DNA of 64,000 bases, taken from contig JAOMKM010000002.1 of the NCBI GenBank assembly GCA_028351715.1, positions 42,515 to 106,514 of the forward strand. Reading direction: 5' to 3'. Source of the DNA: Methylophilaceae bacterium (GTDB lineage: Bacteria > Pseudomonadota > Gammaproteobacteria > Burkholderiales > Methylophilaceae). Position numbers and translations under genes: made by a program. The notes beneath the pieces are model-generated. The model saw only the letters and a list, made by a program, of their open reading frames with translations, searched no databases and was not told the origin of the DNA. Positions 1 to 61,141 of this stretch are shown here, in pieces (position 1 is the stretch's first letter; every line of letters starts with the position of its first letter).

Positions 1-1503
1 TTAATTTTAATTTTAATACCTGTTTTCAATGCACAAGGTACTAATTTAGTTGAAATTATCTCTTTTTCTGTAATAAAAATTTTATTATTATTATTTATTG
101 TTTTTAAAGCAGGTCAGCCTGTAATGAATTTTTGGTTTGGGATTGTTGCAAAAAATAAATCTAGGGAGCTATTTGTTTTAAATGTGTTAATGATTACCCT
201 TATTTTTGCTTATGTAACTAAGCTAGCCGGACTTTCTTATGCATTAGGAGCTTTTTTAGCTGGGATGTTGATTTCCGAAACTCGATATAGGCACCAAGTT
301 GAATCAGATATAACTTCATTTAGAAATATTTTATTAGGACTATTCTTTATTAGTGTCGGGATGATGTTAAATCTTGATATTTTAAGTAATAATTTTTTAT
401 TAATAATAATCTTATTTTTATGCCTCACACTTTTTAAGGTAGCCCTAATAACTCTACTTACTACTTTGTTTAAATATGAATTGGGAGTTGGTATTAGAAC
501 AGGTGTCATTCTTTCTCAGGCCGGCGAGTTTAGCTTTGTGATATTGGCTCTTGGACAAGAGAGTGGAATTATTTCTGGAGATATTTTACAAATTACATTA
601 TCGGTATGCCTTTTATCTATGTTATTTGCTCCTATACTAATTCCATTTAATGGAAGAATAGCTAGATATATTGCTAAGGGGTATTCAAAGAAAACAGAAA
701 CTCTTATGAAGCAATTAGAAGGTTTAGGCCATGATTTTTCTAATCACGTAATTTTATGCGGATATGGAAGAAGTGGACAATACTTGGGGAGGTTCTTAAA
801 GGAAGAAAACATTAATTATATTGCAATAGATATAGATTTAAATCGTGTAAATGATGCTTCTAATGCTGGAGAGAAGGTAATGTATGGAGATGCAAGCAGA
901 AGAATTGTTTTGAAAGCTGCAGGCATTGAAAGGGCTAAAGCTGTTGTGATTGCATATGCAAATGATAGATCTACTGAAAAAGTATTGAATGTTATTAGAG
1001 AAGCATACCCAAAATTACCTGTTATCGTGAGAACAAAAGATGAATCCTCAGTTGAGGCGCTCCAAAAAGCTGGAGCAACAGATGTTGTTCCAGAAGTTCA
1101 AGAAGGGAGTTTAATGCTTGCATCTCATGCATTAGTAATATTAGGAATTCCATTGAGTAATGTTATAAAGAAAATAAGAGTATTTAGAAGTGAGAGATAT
1201 AAGATGTTTAGAGGTTTTTTTGCTGGTGAAACTGACCTTGATCAAGATAATAATTTACAAGAGCGATTTCAACTTCACTCAATTGAAATAGATAAATATT
1301 TCTTTGTGGTAAATAGGCCTATTAAAAGTATTCCATTAAAAGAATTTAATATTGAAATTCAACATTTAAGAAGACCTAATATGCTTGAGAATATTGAACC
1401 ACGTGAGGATATAGTATTATCATCAGGCGATATAATTGTTATTTTAGGCTTGCAGGCAGACTTAAATATTTTTGAAAAATATGTAATAAATGGAAATAAA
1501 TAG
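1..1503 (+). CDS. Kef-type monovalent cation:proton antiporter with C-terminal RCK/TrkA-N domain (5' truncated by window edge)
   Basis: Frame is open from base 1 through the listed ORF start at 124. Membrane segments with GxFLAGMLISE and QAGEFSFVILALG, then Rossmann NAD-binding HVILCGYGRSGQYLGRFL. Confidence 0.88.
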   Translation, partial: LILILIPVFNAQGTNLVEIISFSVIKILLLLFIVFKAGQPVMNFWFGIVAKNKSRELFVLNVLMITLIFAYVTKLAGLSYALGAFLAGMLISETRYRHQVESDITSFRNILLGLFFISVGMMLNLDILSNNFLLIIILFLCLTLFKVALITLLTTLFKYELGVGIRTGVILSQAGEFSFVILALGQESGIISGDILQITLSVCLLSMLFAPILIPFNGRIARYIAKGYSKKTETLMKQLEGLGHDFSNHVILCGYGRSGQYLGRFLKEENINYIAIDIDLNRVNDASNAGEKVMYGDASRRIVLKAAGIERAKAVVIAYANDRSTEKVLNVIREAYPKLPVIVRTKDESSVEALQKAGATDVVPEVQEGSLMLASHALVILGIPLSNVIKKIRVFRSERYKMFRGFFAGETDLDQDNNLQERFQLHSIEIDKYFFVVNRPIKSIPLKEFNIEIQHLRRPNMLENIEPREDIVLSSGDIIVILGLQADLNIFEKYVINGNK

Positions 1504-2516
1504 TGTCTTTAAAAGTTGCAGTTATAGGCGCTGGTATCGTTGGATGCCTTACAGCAATTAAGCTTCAAGAGTCAGGTTATGATGTGACTATAATTGATAA
1601 AAATGAAATTGGAAAAGAATCAAGCTGGGCAGGGGCAGGTATTTTATTTCCTTTAATGCCTTGGGAGTATGAACCAAGAGTTTTTGAGCTATGTATCTCC
1701 GCTGCAAATTTCTATAAGAATTTTTCATCAAAATTATTTAAGATTACTGGTATTGATTCAGAATTTATTGAATCTGGTTTGTTATGTATTGATCCTCCAG
1801 ATAAAAAAACTATTTTAAATTGGGCAAAAAATAATAATTTAAATTTTAATGAGTGTTCATTTTTAAATTTACCTTCATATTTATTTCCAGGAGTGACTCA
1901 AATTCGCCCCCCAAGATTGATGGAAGCAATTAAATTATTTATGCAAGAAATTGGAATTAATATTAGAGAAAATACAAATTTAATAAAACTAAAAAAAGAA
2001 GGCTATAAAATTGAGAGTTGGCCTACAACAGAAAATGAACAAATTAAAGCTGATATATTTGTTATTACCTCTGGGGCATGGAGTTCAAATTTAGTTATTG
2101 ATCAAGAGGATATTATCTATCCTGTGAGAGGACAAATGATTCAGTATAAAAAAATAGAAGTTAATATGAAACACATTTTATATTCTGATGATTTTTATAT
2201 ATTACAAAGAAAAGACGGAGTAATATTAGCTGGAAGTACCGTGGAGCATGTAGGTTTTGATAAAAATACTGATGCAACTGCATTAAATGAGCTTATGAAA
2301 AAAACTTCAATATTGGTACCAGAACTGAAAGAGATAATGCCTGAAAATCATTGGGCTGGAATTAGGCCAGGTACCAAAGGAAATATTCCGATTATCAAAA
2401 AATCTGAAAATTACGAAAATATCTTCATTAATTCTGGGCATTACCGATATGGATTAACTATGGCTCCGATGTCTGCAGAAGAAATATATAAACTAATATC
2501 AGAATCAATCGAATGA
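1503..2516 (+). CDS. thiO: FAD-dependent glycine/D-amino-acid oxidase, ThiO-like
   Basis: N-terminal FAD motif VAVIGAGIVGCLTAIKL, SSWAGAGILFPL, and C-terminal HYRYGLTMAP typical of ThiO/DAO. GTG start. Confidence 0.8.
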   Translation: MSLKVAVIGAGIVGCLTAIKLQESGYDVTIIDKNEIGKESSWAGAGILFPLMPWEYEPRVFELCISAANFYKNFSSKLFKITGIDSEFIESGLLCIDPPDKKTILNWAKNNNLNFNECSFLNLPSYLFPGVTQIRPPRLMEAIKLFMQEIGINIRENTNLIKLKKEGYKIESWPTTENEQIKADIFVITSGAWSSNLVIDQEDIIYPVRGQMIQYKKIEVNMKHILYSDDFYILQRKDGVILAGSTVEHVGFDKNTDATALNELMKKTSILVPELKEIMPENHWAGIRPGTKGNIPIIKKSENYENIFINSGHYRYGLTMAPMSAEEIYKLISESIE

Positions 2517-3415
2517 AGAAATCTATTACAATTTGGAGGGTTATAGATGGAATTTATGGGCATGAAAAACAAAGTAAGTCCCTTACATCATCACTATCAA
2601 AAATAATAAATACAAAAATAATTGATTTATCAGTAAAAAATTTATGGGTACTCATAGTTAAAAACTATTTTATTAAAAATAAAATAAATAAACCTAAATT
2701 TATAATAGGCGCAGGTCACAAAACCCATATGATAATATTTTTATGTAAGTTAGTATTTGGAGGAAAAACAATACTCATTATGAAACCATCACTACCAATT
2801 AATTGGTTTGATTTATGTTTTATTCCATATCATGACCATGTAAACAACATTGAGAAAAAAAATATAGTTAAAATTTACGGTGCACTAAATAGCCTTAGAA
2901 ATTTAGGAAAACATAACCCTAAAAGGGGCTTAATATTAATTGGAGGTAATTCAAAATACTTTAATTGGGATAATAATAATATTTCTCTGCAAATAAAAAG
3001 TATATGTAAAACATATCCAGATGTTCAATATTATTTAACGACATCAAGAAGGACACCATCGACATTTCTTAAAAGCCTAGTTTCGATGAATATAAAAAAT
3101 ATAGAAATAACTTCATGGTCCGAAGTAGATAATTTATGGATTGAAAAAAGATTGAATGAATGTAAAAAAGTATCGGTAACAATCGATTCAATTTCAATGA
3201 TTTATGAAGCGATATCAGCCGGTGGACAGGTCTCAATAATTGATCTTATTAAAAAGAAGGAAAATAAGATATCTAGAGAGGTAGAAAGATTAATTTCTAA
3301 GAAAATTCTACGGAAAATAGGAAATAATGAAATGAAAGAGCCTAAAATTATTATTAAGGAGTCTGATCGTTGTGCAGTAATTATAAAAAATAAATTCCTT
3401 AAACCTTCATCGTGA
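2513..3415 (+). CDS. ELM1/GtrOC1-like (DUF1022) putative nucleoside-diphosphate-sugar epimerase/glycosyltransferase-fold protein
   Basis: IWRVIDGIYGHEKQSKSL, IGAGHKTH, LILIGG, TTSRRTP and TIDSISMIYEAISAGGQV match the ELM1-like family. 4-nt ATGA overlap with upstream gene. Confidence 0.7.
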   Translation: MKKSITIWRVIDGIYGHEKQSKSLTSSLSKIINTKIIDLSVKNLWVLIVKNYFIKNKINKPKFIIGAGHKTHMIIFLCKLVFGGKTILIMKPSLPINWFDLCFIPYHDHVNNIEKKNIVKIYGALNSLRNLGKHNPKRGLILIGGNSKYFNWDNNNISLQIKSICKTYPDVQYYLTTSRRTPSTFLKSLVSMNIKNIEITSWSEVDNLWIEKRLNECKKVSVTIDSISMIYEAISAGGQVSIIDLIKKKENKISREVERLISKKILRKIGNNEMKEPKIIIKESDRCAVIIKNKFLKPSS

Positions 3416-4539
3416 AAATAAAATCAAAAAAAATAATTGTAGCTCAAGTTCTACCTGAGATTAATTCTGGAGGTGTAGAAAGAGGCACATTAGAACTTGG
3501 AAAATATCTTGTTAAGCATGGTCATAAATCTATAGTTATTTCTGGCGGAGGCAGATTAAAAAACCAATTAAAAAGTGAGGGAAGCAGCCATATTGATTTA
3601 AATGTTGGAAATAAATCGATCCTAATATTTTTTTTGATACCAAAATTAATTTCTATTATAAAAAAAAATAAAATTAATATTATTCATGCTAGATCAAGGC
3701 TGCCGGCATGGATTTGTTATTTTGCAATAAATTTGATGGTAAAAAGTAAACGACCAATATTAATAACAACTATTCATGGGCCCTATTCAATTAACTTTTA
3801 TAGTTCAATTATGACCAAAGGAGACCGAGTTTTTGTAATTTCAAAAATGATCAAAGAATATGCAATCAAAAACTATAATATAAGTAGAGCTAAATTAGTC
3901 CTTAACTATAGGGGGGTTGATTCAAAGGAATTTGTTTTTGGCTATAAACCAAAATTACTATGGAAAAAAGAATGGTTTATGGACTACCCACAGACAAAAG
4001 ACAAAATTATTTTAACATTGCCTGCCAGAATAACTCGTTGGAAAGGCCAGGAAGATTTTATTAAAATGATTTCAAAACTTACTTCAAAAAATATCAATAT
4101 TCATGGGTTATTAGTTGGAGAAGCTAAGGGTAGAAAAGAGAAATATAAATCGCAATTATTAAAACAGATTAAAAAATTAGGAATTGATGAACATATAACA
4201 TTAACTGGCAATAGAACTGATGTGAAGGAAATTATGGCAATAAGTCATATTGTCTATTCCTTATCTAAAGAACCTGAAGCATTTGGAAGAGTTTCACTTG
4301 AGTCAATTAAATTAGGAGTCCCAATTATTGGTTATGATCATGGTGGAGTTGCTGAACAATTGAGGGAGATATTTCCTGAAGGATTAGTCCCTGTTAATGA
4401 CCACAGGAAATTAGCTGACCTATCAGAGAAATGGATTAAAAATCCTCCATTAGTAAAACCGACAAATAAATTTAGCTTAAAATCAATGCTAGATAAAACA
4501 TTAAAAACTTATTTAGACATATTATTAATAAAAAAATGA
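3412..4539 (+). CDS. Glycosyltransferase family 4
   Basis: NSGGVERGTLELGKYL N-terminal motif; C-terminal EPEAFGRVSLESIKLGVPIIGYDHGGVAE. GTG start with GTGA overlap. Confidence 0.85.
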   Translation: MKIKSKKIIVAQVLPEINSGGVERGTLELGKYLVKHGHKSIVISGGGRLKNQLKSEGSSHIDLNVGNKSILIFFLIPKLISIIKKNKINIIHARSRLPAWICYFAINLMVKSKRPILITTIHGPYSINFYSSIMTKGDRVFVISKMIKEYAIKNYNISRAKLVLNYRGVDSKEFVFGYKPKLLWKKEWFMDYPQTKDKIILTLPARITRWKGQEDFIKMISKLTSKNINIHGLLVGEAKGRKEKYKSQLLKQIKKLGIDEHITLTGNRTDVKEIMAISHIVYSLSKEPEAFGRVSLESIKLGVPIIGYDHGGVAEQLREIFPEGLVPVNDHRKLADLSEKWIKNPPLVKPTNKFSLKSMLDKTLKTYLDILLIKK

Positions 4540-5438
4540 TATTCAATAATTATAAAACTGATATTTGGGCAATTGGAGTAGTTAAAATGCCTATTGATAA
4601 ATTTATAAAAACTACTGAAGCTCCAAAAATAAAATGGATTTTTCCTAAGAAAAATTTTACTTTTCTTGCTGACCCTTTTGGTATTTGGAAAGATAATAAG
4701 CTCTATATTTTTTATGAGGGATTTGATTATAGATTTAAAAAAGGAAGAATTGACTGTACAGTTTTAAATAAAAATTTTAAGGAAATTGAGAGTTTTATAG
4801 TTTTAGATGAAAGCTTTCATTTGTCATATCCTTTTATTGTTGAGGATAATAATAGTATTTATATAATTCCGGAATCAAGCAGAGCAGAAAAAACTCTAAT
4901 TTATAAGTTTAAAGAATTTCCTAGAAAGCTTGAGCCAGTAGGGGAGTTGATACCTAACCTTGGTATGGTTGATCCAAGCCTTATTAAATATCAAGGAAAG
5001 TGGTGGTGCTTTTATTCGTTATTTGACAAAAATGACACAGCTAATGGAGATTTACATATTGCATATTCTAAAAATTTACTAGGACCATGGAAAAAGCATC
5101 CTAAAAATCCAGTAATAGTTGACTATGGAAGCTCCAGAATGGGAGGCAAACCTTTTTTATTAAGAGGTGATCTTCATCTGCCAATTCAGGATAGTGAAAC
5201 TACTTATGGGGCAAAATTAAAAATTATAAAAGTTGATTTATTGAATGAGAATAATTTTAAAGGGTCGCTAATAAAAATAATAAATCCTTTTTTCCATAAA
5301 CGCTATAACCAAGGCATTCATACATTATCTGATACAGGATCAGCTACCCTAATCGATTCTAAAAGAATTGATACTTCACCAGTCCGATTTTGGATCAATA
5401 TGCAAAGAAGACTATATAGGGCATTAGGATTAACATGA
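4536..5438 (+). CDS. Five-bladed beta-propeller-like protein of glycan clusters (GH43-like / glucosamine-inositolphosphorylceramide-transferase N-domain-like)
   Basis: FLADPFGIWKDNKLYIFYEGFDY, YPFIVEDNNSIYIIPES, MVDPSLIKYQGKWWCFYS and GKPFLLRGDLHLPIQD repeats. Confidence 0.65.
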   Translation: MIFNNYKTDIWAIGVVKMPIDKFIKTTEAPKIKWIFPKKNFTFLADPFGIWKDNKLYIFYEGFDYRFKKGRIDCTVLNKNFKEIESFIVLDESFHLSYPFIVEDNNSIYIIPESSRAEKTLIYKFKEFPRKLEPVGELIPNLGMVDPSLIKYQGKWWCFYSLFDKNDTANGDLHIAYSKNLLGPWKKHPKNPVIVDYGSSRMGGKPFLLRGDLHLPIQDSETTYGAKLKIIKVDLLNENNFKGSLIKIINPFFHKRYNQGIHTLSDTGSATLIDSKRIDTSPVRFWINMQRRLYRALGLT

Positions 5439-7354
5439 AGATTTTACATATTATGGGTGGAGCAAATGATGGGGGCGCTGAAATATTTTTTGCAGATGCA
5501 TTACTAGCATTAAATAATAAAAAAATTGACCAGCAAGCAATAGTTAATAAATGCTATAAAAAGATAAATCAATTAGATAATCTAAGCATTTCAATTCATC
5601 AGGCGTCGTTTAATAAAATATTTAAATGGGGCACAAAAAAAATAATTGAAAAAGTTGTAGCTGATTTTAAGCCTGATATTATTCATTACTGGATGGGGCG
5701 AGCATCTAGCTTTATGATCAAGGGGCCTCACGTTAATATTGGTTGGCATAGTGGTTATCGAGGAGTTGAGAGGTTTAGAGGATGCGACTTTCATCTAGCC
5801 TTAACTAAAGAATTAAAGGCACATTTAGTGAATCATAAGTTACCAGAAAAAAATATTTTCATATTGCCTATCTATGCCCCTTACCTAAAAGCAGAATCAA
5901 TAAAACGTGAAGTCTTTAATACTCCAATAAAAAGTCCATTATTGCTAACTATGGCAAGGCTCCATCCAGTGAAAGGACTAGATATATTATTAGATGCAAT
6001 GGTTGAAATACCCAAGGCTTATTTATGGATTGCAGGTTCGGGAGAGCTTGAATCTCAACTTAAACAACAAGCAAAGAAATTGGGAATAGAAAATAGAATA
6101 AAATTTTTAGGTTGGAGGGACGATAAGGAAGCACTAATGGCGGCAGCTGATCTTTTTGTCTTCCCCTCAAGAAATGATGCTTTTGGTGCAGTTATGCTTG
6201 AGGCATGGGCACACAAAATCCCATTTATAGCCACAAAAGCTCCTGGACCAAAGGCTTATATAAAGAATAAAATTGATGGGGTGTTAGTAGATATTGATAG
6301 TCCAAAAAAATTAAGCAAAGCAATTAAGATGACAATTAATAATATTCCTTTGCAAAAAAAGTTAATCAAAAACGGATATAAAAGATACCAAAAAGAGTTT
6401 ACTGAAAAAGCCTTTGTTTTGAATGTAACTAATATATATAAAGAAATACTAAATCTCCAGAAAATAATGATTAAAAAAATATTAATAATTAAGCATGGAG
6501 CATTAGGAGACATGATTCAGGCTGATGGGATGATGCAAGATATCCGGAGGACTTACCCTAAAGTAAGAATAATTCTCTTAACAACAAAGTCACACGCAGA
6601 ACTTTATAAACATGCACCTTTCATTGATGAAATTATCATTGATGAGAGAAAGCCATTTTGGAAAGTAAAATCGATTATTGATTTAGCTAGTAAGCTTCTA
6701 GATTTAAATATTGATAAGGTTATTGATCTACAGAACTCCAGAAGAACTAGATATTATAAAAAATTTATACTAAATAAAATTCAATGGAATGATACATCAA
6801 ACATAATTGATGAAGATTCTGGATTTGAGACTCAATTAACTCTATTAAGAAATATGGGAGTAAAGATTAAATTCTCGCAATCTCCAAATATACAATGGAC
6901 AACTAAGAATGTATCAAAGTTATTGGGGAATCAGAATATTAGAAGAAAATTTGTTGTTCTAATACCTGGATCGTCAAAAAAAAATCAAGAAAAAAGATGG
7001 CCTCATTTTCCTTTATTAGAAAAACTATTGATTAAAAATAAAATTTCAGTTCTAACTTTGCTTGGGGATGAAGAGAAAAATTTAGAGTCTAGTTTTCAAG
7101 GCCCTGTTTTAAAAAATTTAAGTTGGTTCGAGCTAGCTGGATGCCTTAATGAGTCATCATTTGTTATTGGAAATGATTCTGGACCAACATTTTTAGCTTC
7201 TTATTTAAACAAAAAAGGATTGGCACTTTTTGGTCCAACAACTTCAGCAAAAGCAACTAGCATATTTATAATTGGATCATTTAAAGCTATTGAGGCTGAT
7301 AATTTAGAAAAATTAAAACCTATTGATGTTTATAACAGCTTTAAGAATTTTTAA
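5435..7354 (+). CDS. Fused GT4 glycosyltransferase (about residues 1-343) + GT9 heptosyltransferase-like (about residues 345-639)
   Basis: N-terminal half: MARLHPVKGLDILLDAM, FPSRNDAFGAVMLEAWAHKIPFIAT (GT4). C-terminal half begins MIKKILIIKHGALGDMIQADGMM and ends FVIGNDSGPTFLASYLNKKGLALFGPT (GT9). Confidence 0.85.
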   Translation: MKILHIMGGANDGGAEIFFADALLALNNKKIDQQAIVNKCYKKINQLDNLSISIHQASFNKIFKWGTKKIIEKVVADFKPDIIHYWMGRASSFMIKGPHVNIGWHSGYRGVERFRGCDFHLALTKELKAHLVNHKLPEKNIFILPIYAPYLKAESIKREVFNTPIKSPLLLTMARLHPVKGLDILLDAMVEIPKAYLWIAGSGELESQLKQQAKKLGIENRIKFLGWRDDKEALMAAADLFVFPSRNDAFGAVMLEAWAHKIPFIATKAPGPKAYIKNKIDGVLVDIDSPKKLSKAIKMTINNIPLQKKLIKNGYKRYQKEFTEKAFVLNVTNIYKEILNLQKIMIKKILIIKHGALGDMIQADGMMQDIRRTYPKVRIILLTTKSHAELYKHAPFIDEIIIDERKPFWKVKSIIDLASKLLDLNIDKVIDLQNSRRTRYYKKFILNKIQWNDTSNIIDEDSGFETQLTLLRNMGVKIKFSQSPNIQWTTKNVSKLLGNQNIRRKFVVLIPGSSKKNQEKRWPHFPLLEKLLIKNKISVLTLLGDEEKNLESSFQGPVLKNLSWFELAGCLNESSFVIGNDSGPTFLASYLNKKGLALFGPTTSAKATSIFIIGSFKAIEADNLEKLKPIDVYNSFKNF

Positions 7355-11866: not shown

Positions 11867-13288
11867 ATGAAAAAGCTTTTATTATTGATTTATTTTTTAA
11901 GCCAAAATTTGATGGCTAATGATTTGCCAGATTTAGGTAGTTATACCGATAGTATTGTTAGCGATGTAGAGGAGGATAAAATCGCCAAACAAATTCTATA
12001 TCAGGTTAATCAAAGTCCTATTGTGGTCCGCGACGTTGAAATTGACGACTATCTTACAGGCTTAGGCCGTCGCTTAATGACTGGAACTTCGATTGCTCAT
12101 CGAAATATAGAATTCTTTATTTTAAATGATTCAACTATCAATGCATTTGCTATGTTGGGTGGCGTAATTGGTGTTCATACAGGTTTATTCTTAGCAGCCA
12201 ATACTGAATCTCAATTGGCTAGTGTATTAGGTCACGAGATTGCTCATCTTTCTCAGAAACATTTACCTCGAATTATTGCCAAACAACAGCGTGATAGTTA
12301 CAAATCATATCTTGCATTAGCATTTGCTTTGTTGTTATCCCGCTCAAACCCAGAGCTAGCATCTGCAACTCAGACCATAGCTAGCGCATCTGCAATTCAA
12401 AACACCCTTGATTTTACAAGAAAACATGAAAAAGAGGCAGATAGAGAGGGGCTTAAAATTTTAGATCGCGCAGGCTTTGATGTAAGAGCCTCTATTGAGT
12501 TTTTTAAAACTATGCAAAAAGGTAACCAATTTAGTGGGGGTACTGCCCCTGCATTCTTAAGGACTCATCCGATCACGAGTGATCGTATTAGCGATATTCA
12601 GGATCGATTAAGTGAATATCCATATAAACAAAGAATAGATTCCGATTATTTCTATTATGTTAAGGGAAAGATAAAAGCATTTCTTGAAGAAGAAAAAACT
12701 ATCATAACTATTCTTGAGAGAAATATTAAAAATAAAACATATATTAATGAAGCTGGAGAAAGATTTGGTTTAGCTTATGCATATTTACGTAACAACATGA
12801 TTCTTAAAGCAAGAAGTGAATTAGAGTATATAAAAAAAGAAAAGACACCTAATGCAATGTTGCTTAATTTAGAGGCAATTATTTTGGTTCAGGAGGGCAA
12901 GCAAAAGGAGGCTACTCAGCTTTATAAAAAAGGATTATTAATGTTTCCAAATCATCGAGCTTTTGTTTATGGTTTAGCCGAACACTATATTAGGTCATCC
13001 AAAATAACTATAGCAATAGATTTATTACAGGATTATTTATTAATCTATCCCAAAGACCCTAATCTTTATGAATTAATGGCAAAAGCACAGGCTGTTAAGG
13101 GAAAAGTTTTATTGCAACATGAGAATTTAGCCGAGGCATTTTATTATCGTTACAATATAAGAGAAGCAATTAGCCTTTTAGATCTTGCTGCGCGTGCACA
13201 GGATGGTAACTTTTATGAAAAGTCTCGAGTAGAATCAAGATTAAAAGAGTTAAAAAAAGAGTGGGAACAATTTAGTAAGGGATTATAA
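11867..13288 (+). CDS. bepA: M48-family periplasmic metalloprotease with TPR region (BepA/YfgC-like)
   Basis: Signal peptide MKKLLLLIYFLSQNLMA; zinc motif VLGHEIAHLSQKH; KHEKEADREGLKIL; C-terminal TPR-like repeats. Start placed at 11867 rather than the longer listed ORF start (11744), which overlaps moaC. Confidence 0.87.
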   Translation: MKKLLLLIYFLSQNLMANDLPDLGSYTDSIVSDVEEDKIAKQILYQVNQSPIVVRDVEIDDYLTGLGRRLMTGTSIAHRNIEFFILNDSTINAFAMLGGVIGVHTGLFLAANTESQLASVLGHEIAHLSQKHLPRIIAKQQRDSYKSYLALAFALLLSRSNPELASATQTIASASAIQNTLDFTRKHEKEADREGLKILDRAGFDVRASIEFFKTMQKGNQFSGGTAPAFLRTHPITSDRISDIQDRLSEYPYKQRIDSDYFYYVKGKIKAFLEEEKTIITILERNIKNKTYINEAGERFGLAYAYLRNNMILKARSELEYIKKEKTPNAMLLNLEAIILVQEGKQKEATQLYKKGLLMFPNHRAFVYGLAEHYIRSSKITIAIDLLQDYLLIYPKDPNLYELMAKAQAVKGKVLLQHENLAEAFYYRYNIREAISLLDLAARAQDGNFYEKSRVESRLKELKKEWEQFSKGL

Positions 13289-13389
13289 TAAGTAAAATAT
13301 ATTATACTAATATCTATAATTAATTATACATATTAAATTTTCCTCCATATACTTATCTTTCTTTTTAAATATTAGATAAGGAATTACTA

Positions 13390-13956
13390 ATGTCTTCATT
13401 AATAAATACGGAAGTTAAGCCATTTTCGGCAACAGCCTTTCATAATGGCAAAGAAGTTGAAGTAACTGAAGCGGACCTAAAGGGTAAATGGTCGGCTGTT
13501 GTTTTTTATCCTGCCGATTTTACATTTGTATGCCCAACAGAGCTTGGTGATATTGCAGATCATTATGACGAGCTTCAAAAAATAGGCGTTGAAGTTTATA
13601 CAGTTTCAACTGACACTCACTTCACTCATAAAGCATGGCATGATGCTTCTGATACGATTAAAAAAATAAAGTTTCCAATGATCGGAGATCCAACAGGAAC
13701 AATGACAAGAAACTTCGATGTAATGATCGAGGAAGCAGGATTAGCTCTTAGAGGTTCATTTATAATTAACCCTGAAGGTATTATAAAGACTGCAGAAGTA
13801 AATGATCTAGGTATTGGTCGATCAGCAACTGATCTTCTTAGAAAAATTCAAGCAGCTCAACACGTAGCAGCAAATCCAAACCAAGCCTGCCCTGCTTCAT
13901 GGAAACCAGGGGAAGAAGCACTTACTCCTTCATTAGACCTAGTTGGAAAAATTTAA
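13390..13956 (+). CDS. ahpC: Alkyl hydroperoxide reductase subunit C (peroxiredoxin)
   Basis: [16 protein letters not shown] peroxidatic Cys motif; C-terminal [13 protein letters not shown]. Confidence 0.96.
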
Positions 13957-51746: not shown

Positions 51747-51887
51747 ATGAAAAAAAAATATCTCGATTCAAAATTATGCAAAGTATGCAATAGGCCATTC
51801 ACTTGGAGAAAGAAATGGGAAAAAGTCTGGGATGAAGTTAAGTATTGTTCAGAGCGTTGTAGAAAGTCAAATTACTCAAACTCATGA
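51747..51887 (+). CDS. DUF2256-like small zinc-ribbon protein (46 aa): [46 protein letters not shown]
   Basis: Read directly (not in supplied track): starts immediately after the hisC stop; CxxC...CxxxC with [24 protein letters not shown] matching the DUF2256 consensus as I know it. Confidence 0.88.
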
Positions 51888-51899
51888 TAAAATTAAGGT

Positions 51900-52490
51900 A
51901 TGAAAAGAATAGCCAAAGTTACTAGAAAAACACTCGAAACAAATATCTCAGTTGAGATTAATATTGATGGCTCTGGAAAATCTGATTTAAATTCAGGAAT
52001 TGGTTTCCTAGACCATATGATGGAACAAATTTCACGTCATGGTTTATTTGACCTCACAGTAAAGGCAGAAGGAGATTTGCATATTGATGCTCACCATACT
52101 GTAGAAGATATTGGTATTACGCTAGGACAAGCTTTTTTAAAAGCTATGGGGGATAAATTGGGTATTCGTCGATATGGTCATGCATATGTTCCACTTGATG
52201 AAGCCATGTCAAGAGTTGTACTTGATATCTCAGGAAGACCTGGCCTTGAATTTAATACTGAATTTACAAGAGCAAGAATTGGTGATTTCGATGTTGATCT
52301 TTTCCATGAGTTTTTTCAAGGATTTACTAATCATGCAAATGTAACTCTACATATTGATAATCTCAAGGGTGAAAATTCTCATCATCAGGCAGAAACAATA
52401 TTTAAGGCATTTGGCAGGGCACTAAGAATTGCAGTTGAACATGATGAAAAAATTAAAGGTGAAACCCCATCAACTAAGGGGTCGCTTTAA
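51900..52490 (+). CDS. hisB: Imidazoleglycerol-phosphate dehydratase
   Basis: [23 protein letters not shown]-type motif, [34 protein letters not shown]. Confidence 0.97.
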
Positions 52491-60557: not shown

Positions 60558-60633
60558 GCCCTCTTAGCTCAGTTGGTAGAGCAACGCACTTGTAATGCGT
60601 AGGTCGTCAGTTCGAATCCGACAGAGGGCACCA
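60558..60633 (+). tRNA. tRNA-Thr(TGT)
   Basis: GCCCTCT...AGAGGGCACCA cloverleaf, anticodon loop CTTGTAA, TTCGAAT T-loop, encoded CCA. Confidence 0.95.
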
Positions 60634-60661
60634 TTTCATTAGTATTAACTCATTAATTTGT

Positions 60662-60690
60662 TTGACAAATATAGTAAAATACCCCATAAT
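60662..60690 (+). promoter_or_regulatory. Sigma70-type promoter TTGACA-N17-CATAAT between tRNA-Thr(TGT) and tRNA-Tyr
   Basis: Exact TTGACA (60662-60667) with 17-nt spacer and CATAAT (60685-60690), 14 nt upstream of the tRNA-Tyr 5' end. Confidence 0.75.
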
Positions 60691-60704
60691 TTTGGGTTCG
60701 GTTT

Positions 60705-60789
60705 GGAGGGGTGGCCGAGTGGTTAAAGGCGACGGACTGTAAATCCGTTCTCTCTGAGTACGTAGGTTCGAATCCTACCTCCTCCACCA
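60705..60789 (+). tRNA. tRNA-Tyr(GTA)
   Basis: GGAGGGG...CTCCTCCACCA, long variable arm, anticodon loop CTGTAAA. Confidence 0.95.
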
Positions 60790-60827
60790 AGCTTTACTAC
60801 TTATTTAGAGGGGTTTAGTGTGGATTT

Positions 60828-60903
60828 GCGGGTGTAGCTCAGTTGGTAGAGCATTAGTTTTCCAAACTAAATGTCGCGAGTTCGAACCTCGTCGCCCGCT
60901 CCA
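60828..60903 (+). tRNA. tRNA-Gly(TCC)
   Basis: GCGGGTG...CGCCCGCTCCA, anticodon loop TTTCCAA. Confidence 0.95.
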
Positions 60904-60923
60904 GTATCCAGAGATTTGGATTC

Positions 60924-60998
<75 letters not shown>

Positions 60999-61065
60999 GT
61001 ATTGTGCTGATGGATCAGAATTGGGTTAAAGGTGTTGAGTAAAAGATTTATTAAATAAAAGATTT

Positions 61066-61141
61066 AGGCCAGTAGCTCAATTGGTAGAGTATCGGTCTCC
61101 AAAACCGAGGGTTGGGGGTTCGAAGCCCTCCTGGCCTGCCA
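61066..61141 (+). tRNA. tRNA-Trp(CCA)
   Basis: AGGCCAG...CTGGCCTGCCA, anticodon loop CTCCAAA, just upstream of secE. Confidence 0.95.

Follow-up and report, generated by a model that had tools for sequence, protein, structure and literature searches.

Multi-domain glycosyltransferases of bacteria carry two glycosyltransferase modules in one polypeptide. Separate genes that follow one another in the same direction are most commonly arranged with overlaps of −4 and −1 nt (PMC10666635). For reading-frame transitions that occur as singletons, the GeneTack survey (PMC3711429) gives indel mutations, sequencing errors or neighboring pairs of genes as the cause. Transcription itself introduces indels; in Buchnera the measured rate is about 1e-5 per nucleotide, that of E. 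coli lies within two-fold of it, and the rate rises exponentially with run length (PMC5574713).

The locus described here lies in the genome of a marine methylotroph, a Methylophilaceae bacterium, within a stretch of 64,000 nucleotides that was analyzed as a whole and is referred to below as the window. It contains an open reading frame in which a glycosyltransferase of family GT4 continues into one of family GT9, with the following features.

1503 to 5438, forward strand: upstream genes joined by 4-nt overlaps, namely glycine-oxidase-like (named from its sequence), ELM1-like, GT4 and GINT1_N-like; from open reading frames and profiles, syntenic with G028.
5435 to 7354, forward strand: fused GT4-GT9 open reading frame, 639 aa, from the reading frame and profile matches.
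5435 to 6463, forward strand: GT4 part, 343 aa, up to the lysine at which, in the alignment, the stand-alone GT4 of G028 and G009 ends; PF00534, 55 to 58% identity to G028, G009 and G018.
6458 to 6466, forward strand: seam CAG AAA ATA, the sole possible site of the event, frame 0 aligning with relatives up to K343.
6461 to 6464, forward strand: AAAA run named in the initial annotation, among 10,964 A/T runs of length 4 in the genome.
6465 to 6470, forward strand: +1-frame TAA TGA overlapping the GT9 ATG (hidden TAATG and ATGA), read from the sequence, with chance frequencies counted genome-wide.
6467 to 7354, forward strand: GT9 part, whose ATG aligns near the starts of separate GT9 homologues (MIKKILIIKHGALGD); PF01075, 41 to 44% identity to the separate genes of those genomes whose alignments are near-complete.

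The fusion reported in the initial annotation is present as described, and the reading frame is free of stops through both halves. Residues 157 to 317 match PF00534 (Glycos_transf_1, CAZy GT4) with an E value of 2.6e-37 and 128.4 bits, above the curated cut-off of 26.4, and residues 483 to 605 match PF01075 (Glyco_transf_9, CAZy GT9) with an E value of 1.9e-11 and 44.2 bits, above the cut-off of 22. That both Pfam domains are intact, with no stop across 639 codons, supports a fusion. The predicted product would be a single polypeptide of about 73 kDa that may carry both activities. Among solved structures, none matched both halves of the fused protein, and an AlphaFold model built from 5 sequences was too poor for use (pLDDT 54.5, pTM 0.38).

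The GT4 and GT9 genes are separate in every relative from the genus in which they were found, which was the comparison proposed with the initial annotation. GT4 orthologues occur in 3 of the 30 other genus genomes (G028, G009 and G018, 55 to 58% identity) and GT9 homologues in 10 of the 30 (34 to 44% identity), and neither gene is fused in any of them. A fusion held in common by a clade and kept by selection would be expected in several independent genomes. The fused architecture was found in 0 of the 30 other genus genomes and in 0 of 369 genomes of the class, and nothing was counted in favor of this reading, which we regard as extremely unlikely. In several of the class genomes the GT4 and GT9 matches adjoin, in different open frames. 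A wider hunt for GT4-GT9 fusions was equally negative, the matches to both families in nine checked genomes lying in frames of different length; among 399 phylum genomes the best GT9 matches were mostly in stand-alone-sized frames, with a few in longer ones. A scan of viral contigs for relatives gave no match. A search with a 16-base junction pattern returned 92 matches, which were taken as chance since the pattern is too short. The same region in two sister assemblies, L159 (G029) and L160 (G013), holds many broken reading frames, as in indel-rich assemblies, and these are poor references for the frame.

The arrangement of the two genes in the relatives locates the event. In G008 and G022, which have a more distant GT4, the GT4/GT9 junction is a 4-nt ATGA overlap, as in a translationally coupled pair. 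In G018 the overlap with the GT9 start is 28 nt, and the upstream gene keeps the relative frame that it has in G008 and G022; in all three genomes GT4 is directly upstream of GT9 and its reading frame runs past the GT9 start in the +1 frame. In G028 and G009 both genes lie in the same frame, and a TAG stands 21 nt before the GT9 ATG. The C terminus of the G028 GT4, ...FVRNILAIYTKILKINE, aligns without gaps with ...FVLNVTNIYKEILNLQK in the window and ends just before the hidden TAA. Up to K343, frame 0 is therefore that of GT4, which places the event within positions 6458 to 6466.

At this seam the initial annotation had pointed to a stop and start concealed in the +1 frame, and the letters bear it out. 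The AAAA run at 6461 to 6464, directly preceded by a G at 6460, is followed by a +1-frame TAA (6465 to 6467) that overlaps the frame-0 ATG (6467 to 6469), and removal of one A leaves CAG AAA TAA TG. What that account did not include is that the +1 frame continues as TAA TGA, the TGA lying within the ATGA at 6467 to 6470. The seam thus hides two overlap styles, one of 1 nt (TAATG) and one of 4 nt (ATGA). Such motifs are frequent by chance in a genome of 33.6% G+C: among the 5,428 in-frame internal ATGs of its open reading frames, 34% carry a hidden ATGA (A after the ATG) and 4.2% carry both motifs. Because 12.4% carry a hidden TAATG (nTA before the ATG), the concealed stop and start is weak evidence of a relic. 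Homology is better evidence for the origin of the fusion.

Homology makes the one-base origin from a coupled pair plausible, because the GT4 of G028 and G009, the two relatives in the alignment, ends exactly at the +1-frame TAA of the window. The single-base step suggested in the initial annotation is nevertheless not required. Since the two genes share a frame in G028 and G009, it would be enough for the stop codon to be lost by substitution (TAG>CAG at 6458, or TAA>AAA at 6461) or for a net 27 nt to be deleted in frame from their layout; counted on the sequences, the conserved F of FVxN is 93 nt from ILIIK in G028 and G009 and 66 nt from it in the window. On the sequences compared, the data favor none of the one-base insertion, the stop-loss substitution and the 27-nt shortening over the others.

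The placement of the +1-frame TAA and its overlapping ATG would also suit termination and re-initiation. The initial annotation had raised a slippage-controlled fused/split switch, which would work through slippage at AAAA during transcription or through ribosomal frameshifting there. The run is a short A4 and slippage rises exponentially with run length; no corresponding A-run exists in G028, G009, G018, G008 or G022, and the RNA spanning the seam is no more stably folded than its shuffled versions (z-score of −0.01), so that neither a long or conserved slippery run kept in relatives nor a stimulatory fold accompanies the junction. We consider such a switch very unlikely. Rare slippage at AAAA that would yield separate GT4 and GT9 beside the fused protein, and so vary the surface glycan, is more doubtful still.

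The more serious alternative is an artefact, also offered in the initial annotation, in which an extra A at 6461 to 6464 joins what in the organism would be two genes with a 1-nt TAATG overlap, like their neighbors. With that A removed, GT4 would stop exactly at the GT4 end of G028 and G009, and the junction would again match the overlaps seen elsewhere in the operon. The assembly itself calls for caution: it is a single genome of 873 kb, in 31 contigs and 68% complete. To its joined contigs (872,826 bases, with four small contigs as N) we applied a scan for frameshifts and fusions against the proteins of the one-contig genome G018 and of contig 1 of G028. Homologues were found for 827 of the 885 open reading frames, and the only fusion among these 827 is the present one. 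A second fusion flag, on a 672-aa reading frame of contig C10, was rejected, this being by its sequence a transketolase that had been paired with a split form from G018. A frameshift flag at window positions 51766 to 51930 was a false positive caused by two overlapping genes, and two flags at about 60.7 kb of the window were tRNA genes; apparently five of these, read by eye, cluster between open reading frames at 60559 to 61141 and give false frameshift flags in protein scans.

Two genuine frameshifts emerged from the scan. Both are +1 events in A/T runs and affect genes that the cell should require, and the same searches detected no second copy of either gene. Outside the window, metF (G000:C22:24127-24961; L049 about 4127-4961) is broken by an extra T, with T9 against T8 in G028 and T7 in G018; the break may be an artefact or a genuine loss of the gene, or may make it a candidate for rescue by slippage. 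The other, a PlsC-like acyltransferase (G000:C26:33221-33929; L179 about 13221-13929), has a +1 frameshift in A6, and an internal ATG restart leaves a 190-aa reading frame. No real frameshift was found in contig 1 of G028 or in G018. The assembly therefore contains single-base errors or variants not yet fixed, but they are infrequent and sit in longer runs. As further +1 events in A/T runs of conserved genes they lend weight to the artefact, whereas the A4 of the seam is a poor error site compared with T9 and A6, and one of very many runs of its length. By a crude estimate, well under 0.05 errors would be expected in the last codons of one of the approximately 97 genes in 4-nt or 1-nt overlap pairs. 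The small number of frameshifts together with these low odds favors a real fusion. An error at the seam is not the default expectation, because this is the only fusion among 827 open reading frames and frameshifts are otherwise almost absent from the assembly. The base call is thus likely to be correct, and an artefact is unlikely, although its probability is far from negligible.

The setting of the gene is that of a surface-polysaccharide operon. As noted in the initial annotation, the neighboring junctions are 4-nt overlaps (2513/2516, 3412/3415, 4536/4539 and 5435/5438), and the gene order around the locus is largely conserved with G028. The protein encoded at 4536 to 5438, inside this bacterial glycan operon, matches GINT1_N with an E value of 3.4e-42; GINT1_N is the N-terminal part of plant-type glucosamine inositolphosphorylceramide transferase.

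Taken with the separate genes of the relatives, the locus is probably a young, lineage-specific and ordinary fusion of the GT4 and GT9 genes of this operon. The starting point would have been adjacent co-directional genes for a cell-surface polysaccharide of the lipopolysaccharide core or O-antigen type. A small recent change at the GT4 stop codon would then have joined both into one reading frame in this lineage, whether by insertion of a single base into genes that previously overlapped or by a substitution or deletion that abolished the stop. If expressed, the fused gene would yield a single protein comprising two enzymes, with both halves presumably active in making two steps of the same glycan. 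If real, the gene offers a young natural glycosyltransferase fusion observed soon after it arose, while sister species still have the two genes apart. For annotators, its lesson is that a single base separates one 639-aa protein from two coupled ones; in other respects the case is ordinary.

The predicted protein resembles multi-domain bacterial glycosyltransferases in having two modules in one polypeptide, although the GT4-GT9 pairing occurs in no other genome searched. With translationally coupled −4 and −1 nt pairs (PMC10666635) the likeness lies in the other junctions of the operon and in the hidden TAATG, which has the −1 nt geometry; here, however, the seam frame is open as assembled and the frames are joined, so that no termination and re-initiation would take place at the seam. 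The locus is also like the singletons of the GeneTack survey (PMC3711429), since it is found in a single genome and two separate homologues are joined at the transition. That survey, in contrast, dealt with predicted frameshifts, whereas at this locus one open frame already spans both genes.
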